64,000 nucleotides of DNA from Diphasiastrum complanatum (Eukaryota > Streptophyta > Lycopodiopsida > Lycopodiales > Lycopodiaceae), in assembly GCA_029204225.1 (NCBI GenBank), contig CM055094.1, positions 5,532,063 through 5,596,062 of the forward strand, in the 5' to 3' direction. Each line of letters opens with the position of its first letter. The first letter of the stretch is position 1. A program made the translations under genes and the position numbers. The notes under the pieces are model-generated. The model was not told the origin of the DNA and did not search any database. It saw only the letters and a program-made list of their open reading frames with translations. Below are positions 796 to 64,000 of this stretch, in pieces.

Positions 796-1310
796 CATTA
801 GAGGAGTTCTCAATATCAAAAACACCCTTTAAGGATGCCATGTAGGATATAGAAAAATATCAAAATAAAAAAAACAATATTGTTTATATGCTTGCCCCCA
901 TCACTCCCGAGGCCTCCCCAACTCCCAATGATCTAACCACAATGTCTATAGTCACATTTAAGAACTGTTAACAGCTCGCAGTATAACTTGACTAAATTCA
1001 AAAATATTCTCTCTATTGGTTACGAAAAGGGCAATATTTTCACTAGATCTAGAATATGACCGCCATCCCCAAATTCGAATCAAAAAAAATTGCAAAATGT
1101 TTACATATGCATTCCTTCCACGAGAATGGAAATATGGGTACCATCTCCAATTATGAACGCCATCATCATTTGGAATGGAAATATGAGTGCCAATTACCTA
1201 TTGGAATTTCAAAACTTGTTTTATGCACAAAGTTACACTACCAATCCCTTCCTACATTGTCATCTTCATGAAACTAGGAGATATAAAGGCGTAATTACTG
1301 AAGTTTGAAT
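796..1310 (+). mobile_element. CATTAG-family TIR element, left end (E4)
   Basis: Starts with CATTAGAGGAG directly at a break in copia integrase sequence. About 40 bp in it has GGATGCCATGTAGGA, the subterminal block also seen in the left ends at 42085 and 52494. The interior around 890-1140 is related, in reverse complement, to 15541-15880. No matching right end was found, so the 3' limit is arbitrary. Small ORFs inside look like chance. Confidence 0.65.
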
Positions 1311-20580: not shown

Positions 20581-21103
20581 CCAACCTCTCTTAGGCCTTT
20601 GTTCTCTATTGTCTATCAATTAACAACCATCATGATGTTATCTCACCTAAAAAATCAAATCTCAAGCTCTCCTAAAATATAGTGGCCCTTCAATAGTGGA
20701 GATACTCGGGGTAGTGCCCGACATCTTCACTTACTCCAAGTCAGCATTTTTTATGCCAAGTCATCTGCCACATGGGAGCCTTTCATTTCTTATGTGAGAT
20801 GGGGTAATGTACTTTGTATCTTTTCTATCCAACGAGCATTGAGTTTATTGACAAATAAACATGTCTTGGGCTTGTGCGTGAAAACACCCTAATGATAATG
20901 CCTTGTGTAATGCAATGCCCCAAAAAGTTAAAACCAAAGAAATTCCACAAACTTAATAAAAAAGCCCAACGTTTTTCTTTTTTGTTCCAACGTTCCGATT
21001 TTGCCACGTTTGCATAGACTAATCATGGATCGTGAAAGAGAGCGTTCTTCCTTCTCTCCTTGCCTCCTCCGTTTCATCCTCCAATTTTTTATTTAAATTC
21101 TTT

Positions 21104-35959: not shown

Positions 35960-36680
35960 TGTGCATCTATTGTACGTAATGAAGCTAATTGAATTAGCTA
36001 TCTTTGAGCAAAATTGAAGCAAGTTCTGACAATTAGTATGTTAACAAAGGTCCATGAATAAAGTCGTCTTTGTGACAATTATTGTGTAACAAATGTCAAT
36101 GAAGAAAGCCATCCACGAGGTGGTCACTTAGTTAGGACTTCATTTCCTATGCTTGAGGTCATGAATTCAACTCCATCCCATAGTACAAATGAGTAGATAC
36201 AAGAAAAGAAATAATGTAGATAGATTTAAGCATATGCAAAACTTGAAGACCAATTTGTACACCCTATATTGAAACATTAGATTGCTCAAATGCCATTATT
36301 CATCAATCTCTAGTCACATGACATGCCATCAAATATTGTGAAGATGTTAGGTCTAAACTTTCAAAGACGCCATTTTAAGAACATTAGAAGTTAATTGAAG
36401 AATGATCGTGGAAAACATGTTGTTTTGAAGACCTCCTCCAAGATCAATACTAGGATGCCAAAACCAAGACAAACAATGGGAACGAACGGTGGCTCAAACC
36501 TACCCAACCAATCTATATCAAAACCGATTTAGACCCCAAGCTATGGACCAAGAAGAACTCAATAAGGACAGATGTCATGTGAAAAATTCAACTAGTTTAG
36601 TTGAGTTATTTTGGCAATTTTGAGGCCAACATGAAATTTCAACTTAGAGATAGATTTCTTAATTCGGTCGAGATATATTT
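35960..36680 (-). repeat. Inverted-repeat partner, left copy (uninterrupted)
   Basis: Reverse complement of 49890-50405 joined to 52044-52240. It is continuous here, including the segment GGTCAT/GAATTC at 36162/36163 that is the empty site for the CATTAG element at 50406-52043. It includes the head of a copia LTR (TGTGAAAAATTCAACTAG) at 36578-36660. Confidence 0.85.
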
Positions 36681-38446: not shown

Positions 38447-41400
38447 CTCCCTCTTGAACCTTGCAACTTTGTATATTAATCCAATTGTCTTTTTTTGCTT
38501 TGCGAAGAGTGGTTTGTTGAGCGGCTTCGTGAGCAGATCTGCAATCATCTCTTCAGACTTTATGTACTGAACCTTGAGCTCTCCCTTCAAGATCAAGTCT
38601 CGAATATGATGGTACTTCAAAGGTATATGTTCTGCCTTTGAATGGAAAACAAGATCTTGGGACAGATATATGGCACTTTTAGAATCCATCATCATCGTGC
38701 ATGGTTCTCCTTGTGGTATGCCAATTGCCTCCAACATCATTTGCAGCCATACTACCTCATTCACCATCTTTGAAGCTACGACATATTTAGCTTCGCATGA
38801 GAATTGAGCCAGCAAGGTTTGCCTCTTGCATATCCAGATGATTGCTGTTCCGCATGCTATCAAACATCCTCCTGTCATGGACTTGTTGTCATCTTTGTAG
38901 CTTGCCCAACTTGCATCACTATAGTGGTGCAGCTCAAATCATTTGTCTTTGTTGTCTGCTTTGTAGGTTAATCCCATATTTTGGGTACCCTTCAGATATT
39001 GTAGGATTCGTTTCGCCATTTGCTAATGTGCCATGCTAGGATTCAAAGAGAATTGGCTTAAAGCATAGACAAAGAAAGCCAAATCAGGTCTGGTACAGAT
39101 TGTGAGGTACATCAGACTATCGATCAGGTTTTGGTAGGGTATGCCTTTCATCTTCTGTCTCTCCTCATCTGTATTCAGACAATTCTCCTTCGTTATGTGG
39201 CTCCAGCTATCATTGGTGTGGCTTTTTCTTTGCAGTCCATCATTCGATACTGCTTCAGCACTTTTTGGGCATACTCTAACTGACTCAGGTGCATTTCTCC
39301 TTTTATTTGATCTCTTCTTATCAACCCAAGGCATTTTGTTTCTTCTCCCAGATCTATGATTTCATAATTTTTGAAAATCTGACTCTTTGTTTCCTTGATT
39401 AGCATCAACGGCTTCCCTATTGTAAGGGAGTCATTCACAAACATAGTCAGAATCACAAAATCTCTTCCTACTTTTTTTTATATAGACATTGTAGTCTGGT
39501 TGTGTAGGAGTGAAGTCTAGAGACTTCAGAAGACTGTAGAGCTTCTTGTACCAAGCTCGTGATGTCTGCTTCAGACCATAAATGCATCTCTGCAACCGAT
39601 AGATTGTCGGGGTCTTCGAATCCTTCAGGCTGCTTCATGAAGATTTCTTCCTCTAGATCGCCATTGAAAAAGGTTGTCTTTACATTAATCTGGTGAATTT
39701 CCATATTATATTGTGTAGCATATGCAAGGAGCAGTCGAATTCTTGTCATTTTGACCATTGGCAAATACGTGTCAAAATAGTCGACTCCGTACCTTTAGCC
39801 CTTTGCGACAAGCCTTGCTTTGTAGCTTCCGACAGTGCCATCTGATTTGATTTTTCTTTTGTATACCCACTTGCAGTCGACGATCTTTTTATTTTCGGGG
39901 AGTGGCTCTAGTGTCCATGCCTCATTTTGTCTCATTGATTCGATTTCCTCTGACGTTGTCTGCTTCCAAAATTCTCCCTCTGGACTCTGGACAGCTTCCA
40001 GATATGTAGTTGGCTCTTTAGTAAAGTTGCAGTACTCGAACTCTTTGTCCTCGCTCCACTGAAGATTGTCAATGTATCAATCTGGAGGTCTTCTTTGTCT
40101 TGTCGACCTTCTGGGTTTGATTCATCGTTGTTCGAATGTTTCTTCTCTGTTGGGTTGATCTTCTACCTCCTGTTGCTCTGGAATCTGGGGCTTACTATTC
40201 TGATTTGATGTTTGTCCTCGATCTCCCTCTTGAATTGGTAGTAGTGTGAAGATCTCATGGCCTTTTTTGTCCTTCAATCCAGGGAATGTGGACTCATCGA
40301 ACTTCACATCTCTACTCAACATGACCTTCTTTGTGATTGGGTCATAGAGTCTGTACACTTGTGATCCATTCGAGTATTCGACCATGATTACCTGTTCTGA
40401 TTTTTCATCGAGGTTGCTCCTTTGTTCCTTTGGTATGTGCTTGTATGCTACACATCCGAATACACGCACGTATGATAGATCAGGCTTTCTACTTGTCCAC
40501 ATCTCGTACGGTGTTTTGTCTTCCAGGGCTGTCGTTGTTGATCTGTTCTGCAGGTGTACTGCTGTAGCTATTTCCTCAGCCCAAAATTGACTTGGCAATC
40601 GAGCATGTGCCATCATGCATCTAGCTCCTTCGACTAGCGTCTTGTTTCTTCTTTCTGTGACACCATTATATTTGGGTGTGTACACAGGAGTGAATTGATG
40701 CTCTATCCCCTGTTCTTGGTAGAATCTAAAACTCTTGTACTCACCTCCATTATTAGACCTGATAATCTAAATATTCTTTGAGGTGTGTCTCTCTACAAAT
40801 GCCACAAACTTTTTGAAAAAGTCAAACACGTCAGATTTTTTCTTTAGGTAGTATATCGTTGTCATCCGGCTGTAGTCATCAATGAATGTCAAGAAATACC
40901 TTGATCTTGAGAGCGAATTGACTTTCATTGCTCCACAGACATCTGAGTGGACAAGCTCAAGAACTTCTTTAGCTCTTTTTTTCTCATGTGTGAATGGATT
41001 CTGATGTTGTTTGCCTTTCATGTTTACATGATACATTCTTCTGTGCCAGAGTTGATTTTTGTTTTTGGATTCATTTAGTATGCTATTAGATTTGCTGATT
41101 ATCTTGGCTTGGTAGAGATTTCCTTCTCTGCATCCAACTATCAGCAACTTGTTTCTTGTTTTCTCAATCATCCGGCATACATTGCCATTGAATAGAACTC
41201 GAATTTCAAGATCTGCCATCTTGGATACTGATAGCAGGTCTCTTCTCAGTGAAGGTACGTAGAGTGCTCCTGGCAGCTTTGCTTCACCTGACAGTGTTCG
41301 TAATTGTAGAGTCTCGATCCCCTTGACATCGTGTCAGCTCCCATCGACTAGAATCATTGCTCTATTGTTTTCGAGCTCTCTGAAGTCGATCAAGATTTTT

Positions 41401-42056: not shown

Positions 42057-42640
42057 TTGTAGCTAATTGTGAAGATGCATCACTCATTAGAGAAAATATG
42101 GGCCCAAAGAGGGCCCTATAAGAAATGCCATGTAGGAGAGAGAAAAATAACTATAAAGTAATTATAATATCATTTTCTAACTTCTTTACGCATCTGTCCG
42201 CACTACTTTCCATGTAAATGAATGCACTTTAGTTTAGTCACATCAAACTTCACCGGTGTTTAGCCATAGTTAGAATATTTTTAAAATGTTGAGATATTCC
42301 CTCCCAATAGCTGATAACACTCAAAAATTTGAATTTGGAATGACATTTCTGAAAAAAGCCTACGCCATCTCTATCTCCAGGGTCAAAAACAAGTGTTTAG
42401 CGCCATCTCAATCTCCAGCAGAGTCGTTAGCACCATCTCCAGCTTTGTTATTGTCATTGTGTTGTTTGTTACTATACTACTGTACTGATGACAAAACTTT
42501 ATCATCTTCATGTGGATCTGTCACCAGAATATGCTCCGCTCAGGACGATAAATTCAAAGCAACCCAAATTGTCAACTTCTGATATGGTCTGATAGAGGGA
42601 GGAAAAGCTAAAACATGTAGATTTATGGTCATCAGGAACA

Positions 42641-43020
42641 TTGTATCCTATTGATCCATGTTCATTGCAACATCCAGATTTTCATTCGGTGAGTCAGTTG
42701 ATAGTCTATATGTGTCATGGTAAAAATGGCCTTTTGGGTTACTATGAGAATTTGATGCTCTATGGGAATGCACATTCAATGCAAAGAATACATTATTTGG
42801 AAGAGGAATCAAGGAAAATATCAAAGGACTGCGAAGAAAAATCTACAAAGAAACTTGTTTGGATGAAAATGAGATGCTCAAGGAGGAGATCCAAAGGTTG
42901 AAATCTTCTTTGCATCATTATACAACTAGTAATGATGAGATAAAAATTGCATTTCAATCCATGCGTATCTCATATTTGTCTCTTGTTAAAGATATGGATG
43001 TGCTCAACAGAAAGGTCTGA
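42641..43020 (+). other. Possible 5' exon region of gene B in E1
   Basis: Plus-strand open pieces with a coiled-coil-like, Lys/Glu-rich composition. The start of gene B probably lies here or just downstream, but exon borders could not be fixed. 42290-42480 is repetitive GCCATCTCCAGC-type sequence shared loosely with E4. Confidence 0.3.
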
Positions 43021-43278
43021 AGCAACAAGAGGAAAAGACTGGTAAACAAGGATATATGTGATCTATCATCCAGAGGAGGTCATAGAAAAAGACAAATCCG
43101 TGCATTCAAGCAAGTTATAGCTTATTTGGTGTTGAATAATGCTTGAACTTTTTGTTTTATTCATAATCAATAATTTTGTTATTTATTCATTTCAACTTTT
43201 TGTTGATTTGCTTATTATATACTGCTGTGAATACTATGAGTGTCCTAATTTCTACTGACATTTTCATGAACATTATGT

Positions 43279-44425
43279 TTGCAATGCAGATCAACATTGG
43301 TTGTTGAAGACCATTTGGCCGATGAGATTTCAATTGGAAACTCACTAGGCTCTATCTTGACTTCTAAATCTATGAAATCAATGTTAAGTAATAACAAAAT
43401 GAAAAAGATTAAGGCTTCAGATACTGACAGCATTATGGATGAAGTTGGAAAAATATTAGACACTACATTGCTTCAGGCGGCATGTGACTTTTCTAGCATC
43501 AGTAGGGAAGCATATGCAGCAATGTTTAAGATGATTTTCACAGGTAAATATTAAAAAGTTTCCAATCCCACGACCATTTCATCTTTAAAAAAAAAAACAT
43601 GTTAAACCATGATATGCAGACAATAGTTGGTAATCCATCTCATATCTATGAAGTGTATTGCTCGAAAGGAGAAAGTCTAGCTTATAACAATTCCAAGAAT
43701 TTATTTATTGACATTAATCAGTTATTAACATTCATCATAACTTTTTACGGTATTACAAATGAGAATGTCAATAACAAGGTGATAGTTGTTCCCAAGTTAG
43801 ATGAGTCTGAAATTATAAAAGGACAAAAAATGGAAAGAGTCAGTCTCACGATCATGAATGGAGCACTTTCAAATTCAGAAGACTCAGAAGGCCTCAATCT
43901 CAGTGTTCAATCAGAAAGATACGAGTATTAGTTTAGATGATTGTTTTGATTTTGATCCTGCTCGAAATAGGGCTACGTTTGTAGGCCCTAGAACCCCCAC
44001 TACCCTTTCTCCTTCTGATAAATCTTTGATAATAATTTCCTACTTATAATATAGATAATAATTTCTTTTTGACAATATCGGAAATATCGGATCTTTTTGA
44101 CTTCACTGAAGCTGAGACCCTTTGCATTTTGGGCAAAGAGCTAGATGAATTTTTGGATGTAATTGATTTTGATGCTGATGATCTTCTCTCTGGTGTTGAC
44201 AATATACATAATGATTATTCAGGGAAAGATTGCTTGAAAATGGCTGTGGAGGAAATGCGCAACAAAGAAGATGATCTACCTTCCGAGGAGGAGTTTCTTA
44301 GAATCCAAAGTCAACTTGGTTTTTCACAGCCAATTGTCTATTCACCAACAATATTGACATCGAAAGGTGGACATAATATTGATGGAGAGACAGTAATCAG
44401 TGAAGACAAAGCCGAATGCGTAAGT
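43279..44425 (+). CDS. E1 gene B: acidic protein of unknown function
   Basis: Exons: 43279-43542 (ending TTTCACAG before gtaaat), about 43624-43930, and 44060-44419 (ending GAATGC before the strong donor gtaagt). The middle piece has a frame change near 43900. The last exon is strongly acidic (DVIDFDADDLLSGVDNIHND) and contains GGHNID. A related protein is on the minus strand at 63011-63626 (GGHNIDHSDLVAADDNEC), where its last exon continues 120 residues further. In both places gene B converges on gene T with little or no gap. No family recognised; an accessory transposition protein is a guess from context. Confidence 0.5.
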
Positions 44426-44466
44426 TTTTGTATCTTATCAAGTACTAGTAAATTGGTTATGTCAGT

Positions 44467-45683
44467 TTATATACTGGAGCTTACTTTGTTTTTTATCATT
44501 TCAAAAAATAATTTTTCTTGATGATTTCGCAATTCGTCGAGGAGGACAGAGATCTTCTGCTGGTTCGTCGATTTTGTATTATGACGAATTTGGATTCTTC
44601 TGTAAAACCATTGGAAAAGTTGCAGTATATAGGTGTTTTTTGTGCTAGTCCCGCCATGTTGTGTACTTTTATGAAATGTTGCTCTTGCTTGCCAATGAGA
44701 TTTTTCCATTCCTTGTGATGACCATATGCTAAGACTTCTACCATTTCTTGCAAAGAATGTCGAACAATGTCGTAATATGTGTTGCATGTCATAAAAACAT
44801 AATCTAAATCAGTACCAAAAGTATCTAATTTAATTGCACATATTTGTCTATCGTAGTGTAAAATCAAAATCTTACCATATAATGTGTTATGTGATCAACA
44901 CCCCATGCCATTTGATTTGCATTCACAAATTCATTGGTTGTTTTCTGTATCATTTGTATCGGTATTTAAAAATTTATCTTTTCTCAAGTATTTCACCATG
45001 TTGTCTACTTTTTCCAAACTTCTACTTTGTGTATACGAGTAGAACCTTCTTCTTCGAAATCTTGAGTTGCTGCAATAATTTCTTTCCAAACCGTGTATTG
45101 AGCCTTAGATTGTTTGCCAGAATAATTTGATAAAAATCTTCAAGCTTTAGATCCTCCAATGCTCGGCTTGCATGGAATATTTCATGTTTAGCTTGTCATC
45201 TTTTTTAATTTTAACGTGGCCTTTATGTAAGCCTGCTTTGGACAACACATCCTCTAATCTGGAAATAGTTTCCTTCGTAGAGGCCTCTGGCTCGGAATTC
45301 CATGCAAACAAGATGTGAAGATATATTATTTTTTCCATAATACGCACCTCCGCCTGCAATGTACAAATATAAACATTTCATAGAGGAATCGGTAGTACAA
45401 GTTTCCAATTAGGATCTTCTTGATCTCTTGATATTCCTGTACTCCTTGTCATGTCTTTTGTTGTTTTCATACAGTACAAACAAGGGTCTTTAGAGTTAGC
45501 ACCATGAGATACATTAAACATACATTTTAATATCTTCAGATGTCCTGCTAGATGCCATTCCATGTTGAAAGTGCCAATTCCAGGAATATTGAGTGGAACT
45601 CCCTCCATGTGATTTTTTATGGTGGCAGGATATGATGTTTCATTAAATATCCATGAGAGAATGTCATGGTCTTTTTTCAGCAC
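44467..45683 (-). CDS. E1 gene T: transposase-like protein, C-terminal part
   Basis: Minus-strand segments. 45378-45683 has GTFNMEWHLAGHLKILKCMF then NVSHGANSKDPCLYCM. 45147-45390 has EVRIMEKIIYLHILFAWNS and RLEDVLSKAGLHKGHVKIKK. 44467-44867 has SIWSSQGMEKSHWQAR, then QHGG, then LQLFQWFYRRIQIRH. All three blocks recur in the same order at 61880-62977. A frame change near 45385 and another near 44740 break the reading. The CxxC block followed by conserved hydrophobic blocks and a late Glu motif is how several DDE transposases are built, but no catalytic triad was proven and no family was recognised. Confidence 0.55.
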
Positions 45684-45760
45684 CTATAAGAGAATAAAAA
45701 AACGTGATAGCCTCATAATATCAACACAGAGAAGATTTTAGATATGAAATCCATATTTAA

Positions 45761-46416
45761 ATGATTATCCCTATTTATTATGCGAAGGAACTGCTATACC
45801 TGAAATGCTGCCAAGCACTCGTTCGGGAAATACCAACAACGGCAACTTCAATTGGAGATATAACCATTAAATCTCTCAAGGTAGATTCAATTTATCTCTG
45901 ATATGCATGTATTTTTTTTTAATTCAAATGTATCGTCATAGCATAAATAAAATTTCTATCATAATATTACTAATTTTCGTTCTATATATGCAGTGTGTAC
46001 AGCAAAATGACGCTTTTAGTTGTGCATGGTTTGTCCTGTACAATACGAAGCTATTTTTTGAATGGTATAATTACAAATGAATGTAGATATTGAAAAGGTA
46101 ATATTCTATTCATTTGTAGTTCATTTCATTCTGATTCATATTTTATTACTATGATTGTTTGTAATTTGCTGATTCTCGTATTTTGTGATGACAGTTCACT
46201 CTTGAGTCGTATACTCCTAATGATGTATATAGATTTCGGCAAGAGTTGATCAGAACCTTTGTCCAGTATGGTGTAAGCGTTGCACCTACAATCGAGGGCC
46301 CTCAAAAGAAAGCTGCTCCTGCCTTAACAGCCTTTCAAGTTGTTCAAGATGCAGATCTTATTTTATATGATCAAAAAGGAATAAAAGGCCTTTCTAATAC
46401 GAAGGCAATTTTGTAA
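45761..46416 (+). CDS. Ulp1/C48-like cysteine peptidase exons in E1
   Basis: Three plus-strand exons: about 45761-45878 (IIPIYYAKELLYL ... IGDITIKSLK), intron gtagat...atgcag, 45994-46097 (CVQQNDAFSCAWFVLYNTKLFF), intron gtaata...gacag, 46195-46416 (FTLESYTPNDVYRFRQELI). The block QxNDxxSCAWFVL matches the oxyanion Gln and nucleophile Cys of Ulp1 peptidases, which process SUMO-like proteins and are often carried by plant Mutator-type and other transposons. The catalytic His was not found upstream. One frame change occurs within exon 2 near 46070. It lies between the two blocks of minus-strand exons, on the opposite strand. Confidence 0.6.
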
Positions 46417-46749
46417 CAGATATTCCTCTTGCCTTAAAAGGCATTGAGGCCCTTCCTGAAACAGAGGAGGGCGAAATTATAGAAGGAGCTGTTGCCTTAT
46501 CAGTTCCTAATACTGATATAGAAAATAAAAATTGATTGAATAGAGATCTATTTGTAAATAGAGAGACATAAAAAGAAAAGATACAATCATTTTACTTGTA
46601 AACAACCTATTTATGGGTTTTTTTTATTGATATCACAATAGATTTTTACAATCAGCTTGTGTCCATAGTCTAATACTGGAATGCAATTTTTCTATAATGA
46701 TAAAAAGACATGATGATTGGCGTGTATTTCCTGATAATAAATCTCAATG

Positions 46750-48094
46750 TTCTTCCATAAGTTGGATTGTTTTGCCAATATCTTTGCATTTGATCTCGTA
46801 CCTACATAAAACTAATACAAAGTTAGTTAGAATTAATACAGAGTTTGTATTAGAAAGTTTTGATTGAACTATTCATAAAAGATCGAGTGTTTACAATTAC
46901 TTACGAGTTTACCATTGAAAATGAATCTGAAGTCTGAAAGTACATCATCTTGTAGGAGCAATAGTTCCCACCGGATGTAGTTTACACTCCAATCTTCTTC
47001 CACCTCAACACATGTCAAAACGACATCATTGTATATAATTTCAATATTTTTTCGTTTTGAATGTCCACTGGCTTCCAAGCCTTGATCGAGTGGCACCCAT
47101 TTACCTTTATTTTTTTTTTCCATCTTTGATAATGGAAGCATAAGCTCAACATTTGTTTTTCAATTTGGTAATGGAAGCACATGGAAGACATTTTAGTTCT
47201 GCATTCTATTTCTCCATCTGATCTTTTGTCCCAGCCTTCATCCATAAGTTCAGATAATAAACTATTTGATAAATTTTTGCATACAAACATCGTTGGGGTT
47301 TTGTGTACATTGACACTTGAAAAGAAATCCACAAATATATTCAAGAAAATAAACCAACTCAATCTGACTGTTTTTGATCTCGTGCTCATTTTTAATGAAT
47401 TTTTTACATCATTATATATCTTGCAACAAAATGATTCTGAAACTGTAGCATGTGGTGCAATCCATTCATCACTTTCAAACTAGGTAATGGAATTGGTACT
47501 ATTTGTCCAGAATTTCCTTTTGTATTAAGAATGTACATTGATTCATAAGAAAAGATTCTACTATCAGCTAGATCTTTTGCGGTTCTACCTCGATATTGCC
47601 ACTGTCCAATATCAGTGTGAATAACATCTAACACACCTACTAAAGATCCACTCGGCTCTCATTCATTTATGTTGGATGGATATAAATATGCAAGAGAAAA
47701 ATGATCAGATTGGCAAGTTTACTATTAGATATTTATGAATGACAAAAATCAAAGTATCAAAAATATCAATACTCACAGTTGCTTTTTTTGTGATTTTGAC
47801 GGTTGAATTTTTTGCACATTTATCTCTGAATGCATATATACATGTTGGACTAGAATTTCAAAAATAGATTTTTTTTCTGATGATGTCCTGAAATCCAAAA
47901 TTCTGGCCTTCCAATAAGATCGAAATGATAGTTTTGACCTTTTCCTTTTTTGAAATGCTCCTCTTGATGATGGATGCATCAAAATCCAAGAGTTTTTTGA
48001 ATATTTTTTTTGGCACCCATAATCCATTATCATCTGTCTCGTTGAATAAAAACACAGAGTCGATTGAGGAGCACGGCTTCCTTGATGGCGCCAT
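46750..48094 (-). CDS. E1 minus-strand exons, possible N-terminal part of gene T
   Basis: Minus-strand open pieces: 47858-48094 starting MAPSRKPCSSIDSVFLFNET, 47404-47634 with GQWQYRGRTAKDLADSR, 46905-47141 with LTCVEVEEDWSVNYIRWELL ending at GGTAAACTC before donor gtaagt, and about 46700-46800 after acceptor tgtag. Splice-like borders suggest a real multi-exon gene. It may be the 5' part of gene T (the Ulp1-like exons would then lie in an intron on the other strand) or a separate gene. No family recognised. Confidence 0.4.
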
Positions 48095-48572
48095 TCATAA
48101 TTTGCATGCAAAAATCTGAAACAATGAACTATGAATCTAAAAATTCACGTAGATAAAAAGCCATGAATCTGAGAAAAAGTGTTGGCAAAAATTTGAAACA
48201 ATGATCTATTTGGCGCCACAAATTAACTCTGGTTATCCTTGTTAACCATGGTTTGACAATGCATATACATTAGTGGTACATCGACTTTCTCATCTCAAGC
48301 ATCTGTCATATTAATTTTCAATATTTTTGGATCTATTCGGGCAGTGATGAGCTGGAAGGGCAGGCCTCATCAACCAATAGCATTTCCACATGCTGCCCGA
48401 CGAAACAACAATATATTTAAAAAGTTTTTATTTTATTTATATTTGGAAAATTCTACGTTACATAGAACCCCGAAGCTAAGGTTTCAATTGGTCCACATGG
48501 CAACAAAAATAAAATAAAAATAAAAATAAATCTTTTTCAAGGGCCCTCGTCGGGCTCTAAGTTTCTCTAATG

Positions 48573-48877
48573 AAAGCGGTAGTCCTCACTTTGTACTTCT
48601 GCTTTAATCTTTCCCATGCTTCATGGATGCTTTCATAGTCTTCAATCTGCATGAGTATTTTTTCGTTGATGGACGAAACGATGATCTTCATTGCACGTTC
48701 ATCTTTTCTTATCCACTCAACTCTCCTTGGGTCTCCCTCTAGAGGCTACACCTCTATGAGCTCGGTCACCAACCAGATGCCTTCACCCTTCAAAAGTGTT
48801 TTGATTTTGAATTTCCACACTGTGTAGTTTTCATCATCAAGACTGATTGCTATTCTCGTCTGGATCATTCTAGCCAT
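48573..48877 (-). pseudogene. Copia 2 gag, N-terminal part
   Basis: Starts MARMIQTRIAISLDDENYTV with the WKFKIKTLL motif of UBN2 gag and ends EAWERLKQKYKVRTTAL at the E1 border. The frame continues at 42084 with VMHLHN and SIRWDG. One in-frame tag lies near 48750. Confidence 0.85.
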
Positions 48878-48932
48878 ATTATGTTGCTTAGAGAATTATT
48901 ATTCAGATATCATGCAGTGATGACATGGGAGG

Positions 48933-48944
48933 GCTCTGATACCA
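48933..48944 (-). other. Primer-binding site of copia 2
   Basis: Minus-strand TGGTATCAGAGC next to the 5' LTR; same initiator-tRNA-Met primer as copia 1. Confidence 0.9.
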
Positions 48945-49555
48945 TGTCGTGAATGTGTCGCAAACTTATTCTTTTTGAGTTCGTTTGGTTTTCTTTTGCG
49001 AAAATTATCAGGATCCTAAACAAGCGCCAACATATCACAGAACATAAAAGATTCGCGCAATCAAGACGACGAGAACAACGATGTGGAGAAGAGAGCAATC
49101 ATATTATCTACTTTTGAGTTTCGAGTGAGTTGGTCAGTGTCTCGCGCGTTGGTGGCCTGACGCTCAGCTCAATCACTGTGTTCTGCTCGTTGGCAGGCTT
49201 TCATGCACTGTTATTTTTTCTATTTTTTTTGTCTCTCTATCATCTATCTTGTGTTGATCAAAATTGTGTTCACAAGACAACTAAATAGAGAATTACAAGA
49301 CAAATCAATGCTAATCAGCTAGTTAGTTATTCTCTGTTATCGCTAACTCTTTCAGCTAAGCGTGAGGCACAATATACCACACTCATCGAGCTACCAGTTG
49401 GCAGTGCGAATGGTTTTCCTTCGCCTTCGTTTCGTTTCGTGTCTTTAGGTCTTCGAGGTATGTTCGACCTTTGAGGTATGTTTGTCCTTCGACCTTCGCT
49501 TCGTTTCACTTTGTCACCTTCCCGAAAAAGTTGCAGGAGTTCACAATTTCTAACA
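48945..49555 (-). repeat. 5' LTR of copia 2
   Basis: Starts TGTCGTGAATGTG and ends TTCTAACA, followed by the ATTGT duplication. Confidence 0.9.
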
Positions 49556-49997
49556 ATTGTCCCTATCCATACAACAATAGCAACAAACATCATTTCACAC
49601 ATGTGGATTCAAATATTGCAAGAAAATTCACATTCTATACACTAGAACTAAAGATATCCTAAGAAATATGCAAGCGATGAACATAGAATCAAAAGAGAAA
49701 AGTTATCCACATAAAAAGAGAACTACAAGATTTATAACAACCGTAGTGCCATTTGGCCACTTGCCCTAAACTAGCAACTTTTATGTACTTCACCAAACAC
49801 CTATTTCTTAGTGACTAAATGCAAATGGGTCTAAATCTGACCTCATCCACAAATCTACTTGCCAAAAATTAGTACAAACAATATTTAGGCATTTATTGAC
49901 ATATAAAAATTCTATCTCTAAGTTGAAATTTCATGTTGGCCCCAAAATTGCCAAAATAACTCAACTAAACTAGTTGAATTTTTCACATGACATTTGT
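49556..49997 (-). repeat. LTR of an older copia (target of copia 2)
   Basis: Ends TGAATTTTTCACA, the outer-end form of the copia 1 LTR, and contains AGTGCCATTTGGCCACTTG as in copia 1 (AGTGCCTCTTGGCCACTTG). Its other part is 37700-37808 across copia 2. Confidence 0.7.
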
Positions 49998-50405
49998 CCT
50001 TATTGAGTTCTTGTTGGTCCATAGCTTGGGGTCTAAATTGGTTTTGATCTAGATTGGTTGGGTAGGTTTGCGCCACCGTTTGTTCCCATTGTTTCTCTTG
50101 GTTTTGGCATTCTAGTATTGATCATGCAGAAAGAGGTCTTCAAAACAACATGTTTTCCAGGATCATTCTTTAGTTAATTTCTATTGCTCTTAAAATGGCA
50201 TCTTTGAAAACTTAGACTTAACATCTTCACAATATTTGATGGCATGTCATGTGACTAGAGATTAATGAATAATGGCATTTGAGCAATGTAATATTTCAAT
50301 ACAAGGTGTACAAAATTGCTCTTCAAGTTTTGCATATGCTTTATTGGTCTACATTTTTTCTTTTCTTGTATCTACTCATTTGTACTATGGGATGAAGTTG
50401 AATTC

Positions 50406-52043
50406 CATTAGGGGAAGTATGGGCTCAAAAAGAGCCCTTTGCAAAGATACTTTTATTGACTTCCCACCTTTTAAACTTTCAAAAAGGCCAATAACCTTCA
50501 TCCATGTGCAACAAACTGTTACAGAGATTGACGAACTGAAAACTTCTAGTATTTTCCGTCTATAGTTTTATGTTCTTGAAATTTGCACTGGGCAGCAAAA
50601 AACCATTTGATTGAGTAATAGTTGTTGCCCGTATGTCCTTTCGCTGCCCATGAAACATACTTCTATGGATAAATTGCATCGGTGCTTTCCAAGATTTGCA
50701 TGCATGAGTCATATCTGAATTAGCTATAACTTTTTATTCATAAATCAGAATGCAAAACTAACTAACAACCAAAAAGAGGATTTCAGGAGCTTTCGAACAC
50801 ATACCATATTGTCATAGTCCTGCCAATGAAGAAGAAAATTATAAGCTTTTTAGAAAAGAGATATCTATTCAAAGCGGCCATGTTCATTTGCAAGATGTCA
50901 AATGGCAATCTTGCGCATTGAATAGATATTTCTTTTTTTTGTAAGCTATAATAACTTTTTTGTTTGTTGGCAGAACTATGACAATATGGTGTTCCTTGAA
51001 AAGCTCTTGAAGTCCTCTTTCTGATTGTGTAGTCAGTTAATTTTGATGTACTAATCAAAAGTTGTAGCTGACAAAAAATGGGACATCGTTTCAGCTCGAC
51101 CGAAGTCATTTGCAAGGTGTCAAATGGCACTCTTGCGCATTGAATCGATATCCCATCTTTGTTAAGCTATAACTTTTTGTTCATTCATAGAACTATCTAG
51201 CCCCCAAGCTATGGATCAATCTTAATGAGAAATGAGGAATCGCTCTAGCAGCATGTAGCTACCAATCACGCAATCAAGCATACACTAGTGAGAGTCCAAT
51301 AGGTATACTTATACCCTCCAAGGCCCATGGACACTAATAGTGCACTGTGACACCTCACTTGACAACTCAGCAGCCTATCTGAGCCATGTCATCCAGTTTC
51401 CCAATGACTCAATGATAGACCCATACAAATCCACCATCCCTTATAGTCATAACTAACTTACGGGTTGTTGGTCTATCGATCTCTAGCGTGGACATGCTAC
51501 TTGAGACCAGTTGTGGACATGACAATAACAATATGGTATGGGATTAGTTAACTACAATTTATAACTATTTACGTCAAATCAACCTCGAGTGTACAAATAC
51601 GGACAACAAAAGAAAGCTCTTGAAGTCCTCTTTTTGATGGTGTAGTCAGTTTTGAATTTTGATGTAATAATAACAAATTATAGCTGACAAAAAAAATAGA
51701 TATTGATTCAGCATGCTCGAGTACATTTGCAACAGTGCAACTGTACTTAGGCGTGCTGAATTGATATCCCATTTTTTTAACAACTATAATTTTCTTGTTT
51801 CTTGGTAGAATATGGTAAGTGTTGAAAAGCTCTTAATCCTTTCTTATGGTGTACACAATTTCGAATTTTGATGTACTAATTAAAAGTTACGGCTAACTAG
51901 GATGGTGAATGGCAATATAGGTTAAACGGCGGGCATCACCAAAAATATGAAATGTTGCCGGATATTCTTCTCTCTCTATGTAATTTCTCTCTAAAGTCAA
52001 ACTTGCTTAAAGGGCCCAATTTGTGCCCATATTTTCCCTAATG
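50406..52043. mobile_element. CATTAG-family TIR element, 1.6 kb, non-coding (E2)
   Basis: Left end CATTAGGGGAAGTATGGGCT then CAAAAAGAGCCCTTT; right end, reverse complement, CATTAGGGAAAATATGGGCA then CAAATTGGGCCCTTTAAG. It is inserted in GAATTC/ATGACTTC; the uninterrupted GAATTC/ATGACCTC is at 36162/36163 (minus strand), so there is no target duplication. The interior holds inverted and direct copies of a ~110-bp unit (around 50721-50825, 50970-51075, 51540-51650, 51740-51910) and a nested R1 copy. No coding capacity: it needs proteins from elsewhere. Confidence 0.9.
51195..51524 (-). repeat. Interspersed repeat R1, copy C, nested in E2
   Basis: 330 bp. Removing it joins AGAACT to ATAACAATATGG, matching the sister unit AGAACTATGACAATATGG at about 50978, so the borders are exact. 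It leaves either no duplication or a 2-bp AT. Confidence 0.8.
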
Positions 52044-52245
52044 ATGACTTCAACATAGGAAATGAAGTCCTAACTAACTCAACACCACGTGGATGGCTTT
52101 ATTCATTGACATTTGTTACACATTAATTGTCACAAAGATGACTTTATTCATGGACCTTTGTTAACATACTAATTGTTAAAACTTGCTTCAATTTTGCTCA
52201 GAGACAGTTAATTCAATTAGCTTCATTACGTACAATAGATGAGGC

Positions 52246-52493
52246 AAAATTTTCAAAGTCTTCAAAAGAAGGATGAAAGTGCTCATGAATGTTAAATCTC
52301 TGAATGATGAATTGCCATGTATTGGTGAAAGCATTGAGGATGTGGAGCTTGTTCAAGTTGTTCTCAATGGCTTATTGGATGATCATGCTAACTTGGTGCA
52401 AAGTTTTGCTATCCAAAAGATATTGCCAATTATGGAGGATTTGCAAGAAATCTCGATGAATGAGGAGTTTAGGCTTCTATCAAGAGGAGGTGC
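52246..52493 (+). pseudogene. Copia 4 gag, first part
   Basis: Translation matches residues about 126-196 of the copia 1 polyprotein (VKSLNDELPCIGESIEDVEL, NGLLDDHANLVQSFAIQK) up to RGGA, where E3 begins. The 5' part of the element is missing. Confidence 0.85.
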
Positions 52494-53275
52494 CATTAGA
52501 GAAAATTTTGCTTTGAAAAGGGCCCTATAAGGATTGCCATGTAGGATGACAAATTTCTTGCAATGTAAAATGCAAAAATAAAAAATTTTCTTGTCTGCAA
52601 TCCTGCCATAGTATTGGATGGTTCTCCATTCTGTGTATAGTCTATGGCTGTAAAAAAAAAAGCCTTTAAATAACAGGCCAGATTGAGACGATTACAGTTC
52701 CATTAAAAAGCCCTCGATGAGAGCTTTCCAATGACACCCAAGATGACCCAGTTCCGACATACGATTAAAAAGTTATTCTCAGTCAAAGTTTTGATTGGTC
52801 AAATGGTCAACCTAATATTGCTTTGGAGAGTGGTTGACCAATTTAATTGGATCAAACTGGTCAACCACGCTCCAAAGCGATATCAGGTTGACTGTTATTG
52901 ACCGCCCAAAACTTTGACTGAGAATATCTTTTTAACCATAGCTTGGATCTGGGTCATATTGGGTGTCATTGGAAAGCTCTCATCGAGGGCTTTCTAATGG
53001 CACTATAATTGTCTCAATATGAGCTGTCGTTCAAAAGTTATAGAGTTTCTATTTGAGCTGCATATTATACTACAAATTAAATGGCTTACTTACGGGCTGC
53101 CCCCGATGCAAAATTACATTTTTTTTTTTAAATGAAAAGAAAATTAATTTTGAGTTAAGTTACGTAGTTTTCAAATTTGAGTGTTTTGATTGGTCCATGT
53201 GTAAGAAACTTTTGAGAAAAAAAATAAAAAGTATCTTTTTGGAAGGCCCTTTTTGCGCTCAAATTTTCTCCAATA
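52494..53275. mobile_element. CATTAG-family TIR element, 0.8 kb hairpin type (E3)
   Basis: Left end CATTAGAGAAAATTTTGC ... AAAAGGGCCCTATAAGG with GCCATGTAGGA; right end, reverse complement, TATTGGAGAAAATTTGAGCG then CAAAAAGGGCC. It is inserted in copia 4 gag. Joining 52493 to 53276 gives GGTGC-ATCTTCTACG, encoding RGGASST, as in copia 1 (RVGASST), so there is no duplication. The interior is a near-perfect inverted repeat, described separately. Confidence 0.9.
52681..53019. repeat. Long inverted repeat (hairpin) inside E3
   Basis: Arms 52681-52840 and 52858-53019 around a ~17-nt loop. Paired blocks: CCCTCGATGAGAGCTTTCCA with TGGAAAGCTCTCATCGAGGG; TTCTCAGTCAAAGTTTTG with CAAAACTTTGACTGAGAA (bulged); GTGGTTGACCA with TGGTCAACCAC. 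A transcript would fold into a ~160-bp imperfect stem. Confidence 0.92.
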
Positions 53276-55444: not shown

Positions 55445-56402
55445 CATGTGTAAAACCAAAGGGTGTGGTTGCTGATATCTATTGTTGTTCTCCTGTCTGT
55501 TCTGTGCTGCTTTGTTTCTCGGATTCTGGCGGCAATCCATGGCTATGACCCTTCTTGTGGCAATGGATACACTCAATCTTGGGATTGAGCCAGCATGTAT
55601 CTATTGTATGTCCGTCTCTTTTGCATCTCACGCAAGTCCTCTTGTCTGCACCTTGTTGTTTCGACCTCCCTTTGTTCTTCCAGTTGCTTTTGTTGGTCCC
55701 CTCTGCTTGTTGGTCACGATCCTACCTCTGATTCGACTCCGTCTTAGGCTTAAATTATTTCTTGAATTTTTCTTTGTTGTCGTAGAGGGTCTGGTCAGAC
55801 CCATCTTTGTGATCAAGGTGTTCTTTGGCCTCGATTTCCTCTCAAATCTCGACAATCGCCCTTTCGAGGTTCATGGTAGGATCTTTTGCGAGCAGGGTCC
55901 TTGTTGTCTGGAATGATTTGGGTAAGGCTCTCAACGGATACGTGAGCTGCTTCTCAGCTGACACTGTATTCTCTGCTCCAGAGTTATGTAGTGATAGAAA
56001 CCGATCCTTCATCTTTCTCACGAAAGAAGTGAGGTTTTTTCCATCCCACTGTAGATTCGTCAGCTGATCTTCCAACATCATTATTTGACTTCTTGATTTT
56101 GTCTGAAATCTGGTGAGCAATGCATCCCACATCTCCTTAGCTTTGGAGAGTGTAGCTAGGTCAAGTGTGAGGCTATCTTCGATGGAAGATGATAGCAAGG
56201 CTACTGCCTTGTCATTTTTCTCCCTCCACTCGCTTAGCTCCTTGCTTGTTGTCGTAGGCATTTCTTCTATGCCATCCACCCAGGGGAAGAGTCCTTCGCC
56301 CTTGAGTATCACTGATGTCTAACCTTTCCAGGCTAGAAAGTTAGATCCTGAAGAATCAAGTATTGTGCAGATCTTGCTCTACATGCTGCTGATTGAAGCC
56401 AT
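55445..56402 (-). pseudogene. Ty1/copia gag (copia 5)
   Basis: Starts at ATG 56402. The reading WVDGIEEMPTTTSKELSEW, AKEMWDALLTRFQTKSRSQI and LTNLQWDGKNLTSF is typical UBN2 gag. Two CCHC knuckles near 55540-55640: CVRCKRDGHTIDTC and a damaged CIHCHKKGHSHG. Two in-frame stops near the start and later frame changes. No pol follows to the left. Confidence 0.85.
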
Positions 56403-58258: not shown

Positions 58259-59107
58259 TCAATATGGAGCTCGATTACTTGCAGCCCATGCTTGAAAGGC
58301 ATCAGCTGGCGATTGAGAGTTCGTAAGCGGGTTATGAGAAATGTTATAAAGTGCCATACCACTTGGATCGTTGGATGGTGCTGATGCTGGTGAAATTGAA
58401 GACAATTGGTTGGGATCTTCATCTTCAAGAGGCAAGTGATCGTATGTAGCTCCAACAAAAGAAGTGGCAATCACAAGCACTGGGCCTGCTGCCACTAGCT
58501 GACCGACGACACTGCCACCAAGCACCTGGCCAGGCTGCGATCCTGCCAATGCGACTGTGAGACCGGCCAGAGCTGCAGGTGCCGGAGGTGGTAAAAATGA
58601 TCCGGACAGAGATAGGATCTCGAACCGCCCATGGAACGTTACTGATGAGCCAGGAGCGGCGAGCTGCCTGAGTGTTACGTTTGCCACTGTACCTGTTCCC
58701 CCCAGAACGCATAACCCTCGTTGGCGCCTTCTTGCAAACGCAGCTAGTGTCTCAGAAACATCACAACCTCGTGCGATCTCTAAAACATGCGGCCTCATTG
58801 CATTTCCAGCATCTCTGGTGATGATGATGGGCGGTTTTGGTTTGTTCTTAGATCCTGGGGGCCGTCCTCTAGGCTTTCGGAAAACTTCTCCTTCTCCCAT
58901 AAGTTGATCTTGACTTTTTCCTTTACCGTGTGTTCTGGATCCGTTGAGACTGCTGATCCCACTGTGTTCCTCTTCTGAGCTATGTGAATCTCGGGGGTGT
59001 AAGGGAAGTGCACCAACAAGCTGGTGATTGTGGTTGTGGCTCGACTGATGGTTATGGCTGGAGTGGAATCCTGGATCCAAAGTGGCCATGAACCTACATC
59101 TGCTCAA
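58259..59107 (-). CDS. AT-hook motif nuclear-localized (AHL) protein, single-hook type
   Basis: 282 codons in one exon. N-terminal His/Ser-rich region; one AT-hook at about 78-90 ([13 protein letters not shown]) for minor-groove binding to AT-rich DNA; PPC/DUF296 domain at about 105-225 with the core GRFEIL at 160-165, needed for trimer formation and partner binding; a variable C-terminal tail. The single hook and lack of introns fit the clade A plant AHL group, chromatin-associated regulators of growth and of hormone or flowering genes. The second Met at residue 7 (MATLDPGF) could be the real start. All expected motifs are intact. No close neighbour suggests co-regulation. Confidence 0.94.
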
Positions 59108-59930: not shown

Positions 59931-61480
59931 ACTGTTCTCGCTCTACCCCACCACCACCTCTTTTCCTCCTCCCCACCTCACTAGTCTCTCCTCCTCCGTC
60001 ACATACCAGGCTATTGCTTTCTTCGCTCTCACACATCCTTTGAGCCTTGGACAATCAATTTTCCTCCTAGTCAATTCTGGAATTTCTGGTACAACTACAA
60101 GAATCAGGATTAACCCTCAGCCAGCATCCATTCTATGTTGAGTGATAAATAGTCAAGCAAAAACTTAACTTGGTGTGCATTGGAGTTGTGTGGATATCCA
60201 ATCTCAATTTGATGGATGCCCATCTAGGCTATCAAGCCAAAGTTTTCAAATAAATGACATCACTGTGAGGGATGATTGTGCAAGCCTCTAAGGAGATTGA
60301 TTGGACCCTATGGCAATTGATTGGAGTGTTAAAAATCACTTGATGTCTTTTGGCCTTGCATCACAAGGCAAGACAACCAAACCCTACCTCATGGCAATGC
60401 ACTCAAGCCCTACCTCTATAATCTTTAACACTTGGACCTTCGCGCTCTACTCTTTTTCTTTTTTGCTCCCACATATTTTACAAGGAAAAGTATTAGCTAT
60501 AATTTGTTTAAAAAATTTGTGCCCTCCTTGAAATTGGTGATAACTATAATTTGTTAAAAAAAAATTGCCCTTGTTAAAGAGGCACTCCATAAGTGTCCAC
60601 TTACACGTATTTGGAGTCTCCTACAAAATGCAATTGTGACCAAAACAATTGAATGGTGACCTTGCTCAAAAAAAACTTTAGCACTTTTCTTCTAAGGATA
60701 GATCCTCCATAAATGAGGCTAAAACATTGTAGACACAGAGGCTTGATCATTGAGTTTGTAACATTTAGTCTAGCATTCTAGGCTTAGACTCATCCGTTAG
60801 TCTATGGGTTCCTATGATCCATGAGGCTTAATCATTGAGTTTACAATATTTTTTTTTAAGATGCCTTTTTGAAGGGGTCCAAGGCTTCAACCCAACCCAT
60901 TGTCTTCAACTTAGAGGAGCTTGCTTGTCTACATTCTTGTATAATTCCCTTCATAATTCTTTATATTCTCATTTGATTCCTTGGATGAACCATTTCACAT
61001 AAAGTGTACACATGTGAGAATAGATCATTAGAATATAGTGGTATTTTCAAAGCAAGTTTGCACAAGGAAAATGTGAAAGAAGAAAAAGAACAAAATGAGT
61101 AGGTAAATTATGGAGTTTTCCAAACAAGTCATGTATTGGTGGTGCAAAAGATAGAAAACTTTGGTCAGAAAGCCTTATATCGTGATTTAGTTCAAAGTTA
61201 TTATTGCAACAACATATGACTTTGAAAATAGGGGCAATACAAGATTGAAAAAAGCTAATTTGTGGCAAAAATCTAGACAATCATGATGAAAACAAAATTT
61301 ATTTATTTGAAAACGATATTGCAACCTTACAAAAGTATTGTGACGCATTTGTCAAATCTATAGCAAAATGTTGTGGAAATGTCCATGACCCACTACCTGG
61401 CATATAGTTTAATAATTCTATGAGAAAATTTATTTGCAAAAGTAGGTATCAAAGCATCATAATCATATACCTGAATTCTA
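59931..61480. other. Unassigned intergenic DNA
   Basis: No gene recognised. The sequence is AT-rich, with short duplicated phrases such as GGCTTGATCATTGAGTTTGT (60746) and GGCTTAATCATTGAGTTTAC (60826). Confidence 0.4.
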
Positions 61481-61499
61481 ATATAGGTGTGTATTTCTT

Positions 61500-61720
61500 T
61501 GGTTGCAACATATTTTGCTAAAGAATATAGAAGAGTTAGGATATGGTCCTCCCAAAGTTTGGAGAAATGGCATTCGCAAGCAAGACGAGCTTTTCCATTG
61601 AGTGACCAATTATGAGAGAGAATTCAAAAAGGACTATTTATATTAATTTTTTTGATGGTTTTACAAAAGAGCCCATTATGGATGTCACAACAAACATTCT
61701 ACGAATGTCATCTTATCTGA
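61500..61720 (+). pseudogene. Fragment of a gene-T-like transposase
   Basis: Plus-strand IWSSQSLEKWHSQARRAF then, in a nearby frame, LIFLMVLQKS, matching SIWSSQGMEKSHWQAR and LQLFQWFYRR of E1 gene T. A decayed third copy just upstream of the fuller copy. Confidence 0.5.
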
Positions 61721-61879
61721 AAAAGCATTTCAACATGCAAGGAGAAACAAATCATCTTTTCTAATGATAGTAAAAGTTGTGTACATTTTATATATTAATA
61801 GATTTTGTGAAAGTTAATTATTTTCATCTCTATCAAAGACCAACGTTACCATGTAGTATGGTCATAAAAAAATTATCAC

Positions 61880-62977
61880 TTGTCATATGAACCGAGATAT
61901 TGGATCAATTTTCTCTTGCTTAGCTCGATGTTTCAAGGGTACACGCATAATGTCTCTCATGGTGTTACATCTAAACATCCTTGTTTATACTGCATGAAAA
62001 TGGCAAAAGATGTAACTAGAAGTACAGGGATTACTAGAGAAAATGCAGATCCAAATTGGAAGCCAGTATTGCCTATTTCCTTGAAAAATGTGCATGTCTG
62101 TACTCTTTATGCAGAAGCTAGGATAATAGAGAAGCTCGTTTATCTTCATATAGTTTTTGTGTGGAATAGTAAGCCAGCATCATCAGCGAAGGAAGCTATT
62201 TGTCGATTAGAAGATGTTCTATCAAAAGCAGGACTTCATAAGGGACATGTCAAAATACAGAAAGATGAAAAGCTTTTTAAAAAGTTAGGAAATATGCCTA
62301 CTAAGCCAAGCATCGGAGGAGCAAAAGCACGTCGATTCCTATCAAACCATGTTGGTAAGGCTTCAAACATTCAACACTCAGTCTAGAAAGATATCGTTGC
62401 TGCCACTCAGGACTTAGGGGTGACTGGCAAATCAAGATTATTGAAAGTTGATGTATGGAGTAAGCTTGACAGTGTGATTAAAATATTAAGAAAAGACAAA
62501 TTTTCTGATACTTATAAGAGAGCTCTACAAGAGACGTGTCGATTTTGTTGATGCAGTATCAAAAGCATGGGGAGAATATCACATCACTCATTACATTGTT
62601 AGCATACATGCTCAGAGTAGCTTTCAATTCAACTATATATTTTGTTCCCAATATAAGACTGACATTACAATTTTGACATGTGCAACACATACTAAGAGAT
62701 CATACATCATTTTTTGCAAACACATATGGAAGCCTAAGTGTCTGGTCATTACAAGGGATGGAGAAGTCACATTGGCAAGCACGGGCAGCAATTCATCGAA
62801 ATACACAACATGGAGGAACGAAATAATATTTGCCAATTATTTCAGTGGTTCTACCGCAGAGTTCAAATTCGACAAATCACCAAATCTTCAAATTACGACA
62901 AATTTAGAAAAGCTTGCAAATTCATTGAGCAGCAAAGAAGCTTAAAATTCATAGCTACAAAGATGTTACAAATGTAA
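61880..62977 (+). pseudogene. Gene-T-like transposase, second copy
   Basis: 61920-62383 is open: YTHNVSHGVTSKHPCLYCMK, CTLYAEARIIEKLVYLHIVF, RLEDVLSKAGLHKGHVKIQK, then GGAKARRFLSNHVGK. After a tag at 62384 the frame goes on with LLKVDVWSKLDSVIKIL. A frame change near 62540 leads to AWGEYHITHYIVSIHAQ, and the last block holds GMEKSHWQARAAIH then QHGG and QLFQWFYRRVQIRQ (in two frames). Same block order as E1 gene T but preserves a central region E1 has lost. Terminal repeats for this copy were not found. Confidence 0.6.
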
Positions 62978-63010: not shown

Positions 63011-63626
63011 TCATTCAAAGGGATCTGATATTTCATCTTCTCCAATTGTTGTGCTATCATGTAGTAACTCTCTACTTGTATATGCATCCAGAAGATGCGC
63101 ATTGTCCTTGTTACCACTCAATTCTATATACGTTGCATACAATGAATAATGGGAACTCCTGAATGGTACATTCTCATCTATAAATCCTAATATGCTCAAA
63201 ACATACGATCTCTTCAAAAAAATTATTTTATTTGCTTTCGCAAATTTTTTATGTCCACCTAGATAATAGGATAAGGCTTTCACAACCATTATCATAGTCT
63301 CTCCAACTGGCCTGAGTTTGGAATGAGCAACGCAAATTTCATTTTTCTGAAAGTGCCTCAAGTAGTGGCCGAGACCACTATCCCTATGGAAAGATTATGA
63401 TTGTTGTTTGAAGCCCTCTCGACGAGTAGCAAACTCACCGATTACAAGTGTATTCTGCAACTACAAAATTGGAGTTCTTAGTATATAACATGTAATAGAA
63501 CACATACATCAGATAAACATACAGTAAAACTTTTAAACTTATGCATTCATTATCATCTGCTGCAACTAGATCGGAATGATCTATATTGTGACCACCTATT
63601 GAAGAAGAGTCATCTACAAATTTCAT
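63011..63626 (-). pseudogene. Gene-B-like protein, second copy
   Basis: Minus strand: exon with SSSIGGHNIDHSDLVAADDN (63540-63626), intron-like gap ending ttgcag near 63464, then an exon through NTLVIGEFATRREGF and KNEICVAHSKLRPVGETMIM to a stop at 63011. The donor position is ATAAGT here against GTAAGT in E1. It converges on the T copy with about 35 bp between stops, the same arrangement as in E1. Function unknown. Confidence 0.5.
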
Positions 63627-63740
63627 AACCGATGGACGAGGGAATTCTAGCTGGGTAGCTGGGCTTGGAATGAGATAAATTCCACATTAGAAGGCAAACT
63701 TCGTCCATGACCACTAACATTTGCCATAGCCCAGGACAAA

Positions 63741-64000
63741 TGTCATGCCCATGACTGGTCTCGGGTAGCGTGTCCATGCTAGGGACCGGTAGACCAACAA
63801 CCCGTAAGTTAATTGTAACTATAAGGGAATTGGGGCCCTTATGTGTACATGGTCATAGTTAATGGTTGTAGGCCTAAACACATGGTGGTGGAGTTGGTAT
63901 GGGTCTATCAGTGAGTCATTAGGGAACTGGATGGTGTGGCCCAGATAGGATGCAGAGGTGTCCAGTGAGGTGCCATAGTGCACTACTAGTGGGGCATGGG
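63741..64000 (+). repeat. Interspersed repeat R1, copy D (cut by window end)
   Basis: Starts TGTCATGCCCATGACTGG and matches copies A and B to the last base of the window. Confidence 0.8.

Follow-up and report, generated by a model that had tools for sequence, protein, structure and literature searches.

The stretch of DNA analyzed here (hereafter the window) comprises 64,000 nucleotides of Diphasiastrum complanatum (Lycopodiaceae; assembly GCA_029204225.1, contig CM055094.1, positions 5,532,063 to 5,596,062), and its first letter is position 1 in the coordinates below. Three complete elements bounded by terminal inverted repeats (TIRs) of the CATTAG type, termed E1, E2, and E3, reside in the window together with a left end, E4, for which no right end was found within the 64 kb (Table 1). 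The positions of E1–E3 had been proposed from the letters of the window alone (the sequence-only reading) and were confirmed by two sets of matches. The 19-nt consensus CATTAGRGRAARTWTGGGC matched 42085(+), 50406(+), and 52043(-) with no mismatch and 52494(+), 48572(-), and 53275(-) with three mismatches, and no further site with up to three mismatches was found in the window or in five mononucleotide shuffles. With a 32-nt matrix, the six ends scored 39.8–50.9 (28–47 in leave-one-out scoring), while 20 Markov-generated sequences, each 64 kb long, scored 18.4 at best. Contrary to the CATTAG claimed for every end, E3 has a degraded right end that reads TATTGG on the opposite strand. Likewise, the GGGCCC block proposed to be common to the family turned out to be a feature of the E1–E3 subfamily, as the autonomous elements described below have GACCC at that place. 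E1 and E3 share end-specific sequence in and beyond the TIRs (53 nt with 81% identity on the left; 59 nt with 76% on the right), and thus one machinery plausibly mobilized both. E4 is of the same type as the ends of three genomic loci (L061, L062, and L065), and its start abuts a copia 1 homology (626-795) that stops at 795.

The flanks of each element were joined by script and then aligned to paralogous uninterrupted copies of the target. The joined flanks of E2 and its paralogue were aligned over 302 columns (91.7% identity; three gaps, none at the joint), and those of E3 and the copia 1 gag over 212 columns without a gap (79%); no base was gained or lost at either joint. For E1, the comparison was possible at the protein level only, in which 127 residues of gag were aligned ungapped (29%, 2e-20) with no residue gained or lost. 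Altogether, the empty sites that the sequence-only reading had seen in the window were recovered, two in nucleotides and one in amino acids. The joints of two insertions elsewhere in the genome, L010 and L016, were also ungapped against copia elements of the window (84.6% and 82.7%). The genome searched was the 1.74-Gb assembly to which the window belongs; each search scored its top candidates only, and hence every count is a minimum and the loci studied represent the nearest matches. The genome searches with joined flanks report coordinates and identity but not letters, and the places listed were compared with the join in length. The listed places were as long as the join in 40 of 40 cases for L026, 35 of 38 for L013, 23 of 40 for the autonomous L070, and 16 of 19 non-self places for C1:48368841-48378291 (the other three longer by one; best place 98% identical). 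In addition, the flanks of L069 rejoin an open copia-like frame, as judged by eye. In total, references for nine insertions (E1 at the protein level, E2, E3, L010, L016, L013, L026, L070, and C1:48368841-48378291) support the view that the CATTAG elements join their targets precisely and without duplication.

The absence of a target-site duplication was further examined in the flanks of 30 distinct insertions. A search with E3 yielded 94 matches from the 40 scored of 2,468 first-look candidates, and 30 loci were extracted (L001–L030, L001 being E3). Ten of them were removed as additional copies of insertions already represented, and the remaining 20 were supplemented with E1 and E2 (22 insertions), L065 and L070 (24 insertions), and six full-length TIR pairs (30 insertions). 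Three of the six pairs (C1:20721697, L069, and C14:27617941) contain a scored match to the conserved protein described below and one (C1:48368841) has a scored right end, while C2:29743085 and C2:31646204 were included on the TIR pair alone. L012, L014, and L027 were retained albeit their degraded ends make the exact boundaries uncertain. E4, L061, and L062, of which the right ends were not found, were left out, and three more copies on C3 near L070 were not counted as separate insertions. The longest flank repeat was 0, 1, 2, 3, and 4 bp in 18, 7, 1, 3, and 1 of the 30 insertions, respectively, as against 18.9, 8.2, 2.1, 0.6, and 0.03 with permuted flanks. No duplication of a fixed length from 1 to 11 bp was in excess at p<0.05 among the 30 insertions (the nearest was 4 bp with p=0.0515), and such a duplication was likewise absent from the 22-insertion set including E1 and E2. 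The fixed 2–3 bp duplication of Plavaka/CMCT was found neither in the 30 insertions nor at the empty sites, and none of the fixed duplications typical of hAT, Kolobok, P, MuDR, and Dada appeared in the 30 insertions. Thus, the claim of duplication-free insertion withstood the flank comparison that the sequence-only reading had proposed for 50 or more copies, albeit with 30. On the other hand, its suggestion of a C/AT target, drawn from two of the three window sites, was not upheld in the sets of 22 and 24 insertions, and neither was a general pyrimidine^purine preference. The target sites are diverse, and merely A at -3 is weakly enriched, being present in 24 of 48 half-sites (p=0.013, uncorrected for positions).

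The family is abundant in the genome. A 35-nt TIR, CATTAGAGGAGTTCTCAATATCAAAAAGACCCTTT, has 1,084 exact copies, as against none for the reversed control. The 40 scored right ends show 94–100% identity across the matched stretches, suggesting recent activity. A conserved protein gave 10,231 first-look candidates, and all of the 150 scored matched with 79–100% identity. This protein sits between two TIRs in three complete copies (L065, 6,512 bp; L070, 7,755 bp; L069, 9,016 bp) and behind a left TIR in L061 and L062. In three of the first five protein loci (L061, L062, and L065), the homology starts exactly at the CATTAG end. A second open reading frame (ORF2; L062 6898-5400, minus strand) is antisense to the gene of the conserved protein and bears a CPYC..KKC motif; no family matched it at the cut-off. 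ORF2 is also present in E1, in the copy at 62 kb of the window, and in L063, L065, and L070, and it adjoins the gene of the conserved protein in E1, the 62-kb copy, and L062. In E1, the C half of this gene is inverted relative to L062; the internal inversion accounts for an arrangement that might be taken for interleaved genes, and the latter was rejected. An Ulp1-like piece recognized by eye in E1 (45995-46077) received no Pfam support and was rejected as well.

We regard the conserved protein as a putative transposase of the DDE type, encoded by a gene that probably contains introns. The motifs KLDESE, LAGDLK, PCLYC, CTLH, and QGMEKSH were recognized by eye. Among the loci covering the respective position, the first candidate D is conserved in 30 of 31, the second D in 35 of 36, and the E in 28 of 34; the C of CTLH is present in 33 of 37 loci and so is the H. 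A CxxC follows the second D, a CxxH motif is present, and more than 220 residues separate the second D from the E. The D...D...CxxH...E pattern, found in most of the 31–37 loci, was drawn by eye and not from an alignment to hAT, Kolobok, P, MuDR, or Dada. Between E1 and the 62-kb copy, mismatches at the first, second, and third codon positions amount to 63, 31, and 125 in five blocks picked from protein matches (with some selection bias); the third-position excess indicates protein constraint. The Pfam scan of the putative transposase exons (to E 5 or 1) gave nothing at the cut-off and no DDE family. The matches below the cut-off in the transposase and ORF2 stretches (E 0.02–0.9, and one of 0.22 in one member) were at chance level and were not taken as real. 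No match was found in NCBIfam or, with two profiles, in PDB, and no relatives were found in viral contigs and prokaryote genomes, as expected for a plant element.

The autonomous elements also carry a gene for a histone H3-like protein. It matched the Pfam Histone family with 4.6e-28 (L062) and 3.9e-29 (L070) and histone H3 chains in PDB with 4e-23, and has a core histone sequence with the H3 signature region. Open frames of approximately 330–340 amino acids surround many of the matches, suggesting a C-terminal extension. The genome search yielded 6,872 first-look candidates, and all of the 150 scored matched. Among the 150 x 150 scored matches, 15 pairs of the conserved protein and the H3-like gene lay within 10 kb of each other, while 0.26 were expected by chance (some pairs may derive from duplicated contigs). 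In 11 of the 15 pairs, the H3-like gene is located 3.1–3.5 kb downstream of the protein on the same strand. TIRs flank the gene on both sides in L065 (with 61% identity), L069, and L070. Codon-position mismatches between L070 and four other copies were 9/7/28, 8/7/31, 12/6/33, and 10/7/33. The differences thus fall mostly on third positions, and the H3-like gene shows coding constraint between subfamilies. The comparisons of L062 with L067–L069 were intermediate (3/6/11, 6/5/13, and 7/6/13), and no third-position skew was seen among L067, L068, and L069, which is what one would expect were many copies dead by now.

Table 1. Features of the window and of the genomic loci compared with it
Feature	Coordinates	Strand	Remarks
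E1	42085..48572	.	Complete, 6,488 bp, CATTAG TIRs; within copia 2 gag; degraded relative of autonomous elements
E2	50406..52043	.	1,638 bp, non-autonomous; second repeat nested at 51195-51528
E3	52494..53275	.	782 bp, non-autonomous; internal inverted repeat of ~370 nt
E4	796..880	+	Left end, autonomous type, in copia-1-family integrase
Putative transposase gene, N half, broken (E1)	42596..43928	+	43472-43917 homologous to L062 3500-3958; rest by eye
Putative transposase gene, C half, broken and inverted (E1)	44470..45683	-	Homology
ORF2 part (E1)	44036..44518	+	Similar to 63760-63471
Putative transposase, C-terminal part, second copy	61880..62960	+	66% nucleotide identity to E1
Putative transposase fragment, third, more diverged	61191..61721	+	Homology
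ORF2 part adjoining the second transposase copy	63471..63760	-	Homology
Histone H3-like gene	L062 7725-8147; L070 2594-3136; L069 2744-3118		Within autonomous CATTAG elements
E2 target, empty-site paralogue	36012..36312	-	Nucleotide alignment
E3 target, empty-site paralogue (copia 1 gag)	11070..11281	-	Nucleotide alignment
E1 target, empty-site paralogue (gag)	55890..56270	-	Protein level
Insertion L010, empty-site paralogue	39602..39907	+	Alignment to window copia
Insertion L016, empty-site paralogue	8114..8502	-	Alignment to window copia

Several other features of the window were noted. The repeat nested in E2 is dispersed over four places (1-389, 16662-17048, 51195-51528, and 63741-64000). 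In E3, 52665-53035 form a self-complementary hairpin of approximately 370 nt (fold z of -18.6 against 20 shuffles), which could yield small RNAs. The copia element at 7120-12980 contains an open frame of 1,316 aa, and the 100% identity of its 653-nt terminal repeats indicates a very recent insertion. A 169-bp unit is repeated in four tandem copies at 21101-21783. Two open frames are probable host genes, resembling by eye a patatin-type lipase (22505-23713) and an AT-hook (AHL) protein (58259-59107).

Altogether, the CATTAG elements are probably cut-and-paste DNA transposons and constitute a candidate new superfamily, for which zero-stagger integration is proposed as the simplest mechanism. The autonomous copies (three examined, 6.5–9.0 kb) combine short CATTAG TIRs with a probably intron-containing gene for a putative DDE-type transposase, the antisense CPYC frame, and the H3-like protein. 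The transposase would bind the TIRs and then cut the element out, and both ends would be joined to directly opposite phosphodiesters of the target, as proposed for the Spy elements of animals. Such a blunt integration would leave no gap for repair to fill, and thus no duplication. The small elements E2 and E3 would have been moved in trans.

Some of the observations weigh against this reading. Flank repeats of at least 3 bp, seen in 4 of 30 insertions, were slightly more frequent than expected (p=0.007 by permutation), the four cases being L026, C1:48368841-48378291, L002, and L027, the last with a degraded end. Three of these are insertions between tandem trinucleotides (CCT^CCT in L026, TCA^TCA in C1:48368841-48378291, and ATG^ATG in L002), and the repeats of the former two predate the insertion, as indicated by empty sites that equal the join in length. 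For L002, 39 of 40 reference copies (80–85% identity) were longer than the join and one was equal; a duplication would require shorter reference copies, and none of the 40 listed was shorter. For L070, 17 of 40 places differed in length from the join (15 by 1–2 and two by 12), but a duplication of 1–2 bp is impossible there because the flanks have no terminal base in common. The homology of L013 stops 18–22 nt past the joint, L009 has a 2-nt gap at the joint with a reference of 70% identity, and the genome-wide search for an empty site of L065 found none. As for the genes, a left TIR could not be located in two of the first five protein loci (L063 and L064), and the conserved protein matched no known transposase by sequence. 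AlphaFold models of two sequences, including the E1 fragment, reached a predicted local distance difference test (pLDDT) score of 37, so that they were unused and lend no support from the fold.

The mechanism proposed above could also have arisen within a known superfamily. It is possible, though we hold it tentatively, that the CATTAG elements are a divergent lineage of the CACTA/Mirage/Chapaev/Transib/Plavaka clade, hAT, Kolobok, P, MuDR, or Dada, in which the duplication was lost by closing the stagger. The CxxC after the second D and the CxxH motif would fit such an origin, and a CxxC-type architecture shared with Plavaka/CMCT is plausible. Pfam includes models of these transposase superfamilies, yet the transposase exons matched none of them at the cut-off, similarity of the CATTAG protein to Plavaka/CMCT was undetectable in the Pfam searches, and the two profiles had no relative in PDB. 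The duplications of CACTA and the other superfamilies in question, hAT and MuDR included, are at least 2 bp. The ends described for PlavakaB (CATCA..TGATG) resemble CATTAG..CTAATG in the terminal CAT..ATG, whereas the 2–3 bp duplications described for Plavaka contrast with none in CATTAG (PMC12730594). This reading and that of a new superfamily share the mechanism and differ in classification, and are not mutually exclusive.

The conserved protein and the H3-like gene may instead be cargo of elements moved by another transposase. The transposase role is predicted from sequence, and DNA transposons of Dothideomycetes are described to have carried histone H3 as cargo, in hundreds of copies with a hAT domain and 8-bp duplications (PMC6710886). 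According to the same account, every H3 copy of Pseudocercospora fijiensis except the original was inactivated by repeat-induced point mutation (PMC6710886). The CATTAG elements share with them an H3-like sequence on a DNA transposon but differ in having no duplication, no detected hAT domain, and an H3-like gene that is coding-constrained between subfamilies. As the conserved protein is itself constrained, retained within TIR-bounded copies, and accompanied by ORF2, we consider the cargo reading unlikely. Other chromatin genes are described on transposons, namely SET in HarbingerS and MuDR and TET/JBP in fungal elements (PMC12730594); CATTAG resembles these in having a chromatin factor beside a putative transposase, but the factor is a relative of a core histone.

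Even less probable is a member of the PIF/Harbinger-ISL2EU-Spy (PHIS) group that arrived in plants. Transposases of this group are compact in the interval from the second D to the E, where the CATTAG protein has more than 220 residues, and Spy is not known outside animals. There was no Pfam DDE match, the relation to the Spy transposase is undetectable in sequence, and the TIRs, host, and gene content are different. The AAATTT motif, which Spy targets between A and T, was absent from the flanks of the 22 and 24 insertions. On the other hand, the outcome is equal, as Spy is described to have short TIRs and to insert precisely without duplication (PMC11304231, PMC4482050), for which a blunt, non-staggered integration was proposed (PMC11304231). 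CATTAG thereby appears to work like Spy, but it does not qualify as a Spy element by its target sites, and the sequence lends no backing to such an assignment. The sequence-only reading had placed the family outside the known superfamilies by comparison with those of plants; this stands in so far as no plant family inserting without duplication despite TIRs was found in the open-access literature searched, but does not extend to the animal Spy. A rolling-circle (Helitron), tyrosine-recombinase (Crypton), or other single-strand mechanism, which would suit the absence of duplication and the GGGCCC-type hairpin in the left ends of E1 (z of -4.6) and E2 (z of -2.2), is highly improbable given TIRs at both ends, which set CATTAG apart from Helitrons and Cryptons, no Pfam match to HUH, helicase, or recombinase in the element stretches scanned, and a hairpin that is weaker in the right ends of E1 and E2 and absent from both ends of E3, and was accordingly rejected as a required feature.

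Within the favored reading of a zero-stagger transposon, we consider it possible, though tentatively, that CATTAG is an independent plant superfamily, in which a DDE-type transposase unrelated to Spy evolved zero stagger and the autonomous members use their own H3 variant in transposition, be it to gain access to chromatin, to choose targets, or to evade silencing. Cut-and-paste insertion is commonly defined by its target-site duplication, which most annotation programs demand; a family as abundant as CATTAG could therefore go unnoticed. If confirmed, a zero-stagger integrase unrelated to Spy would point to more than one origin of blunt integration. Precise insertion free of duplication is useful for gene delivery. 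Finally, the coding-constrained H3 variant borne by a transposon makes it testable whether mobile elements deploy histones of their own.

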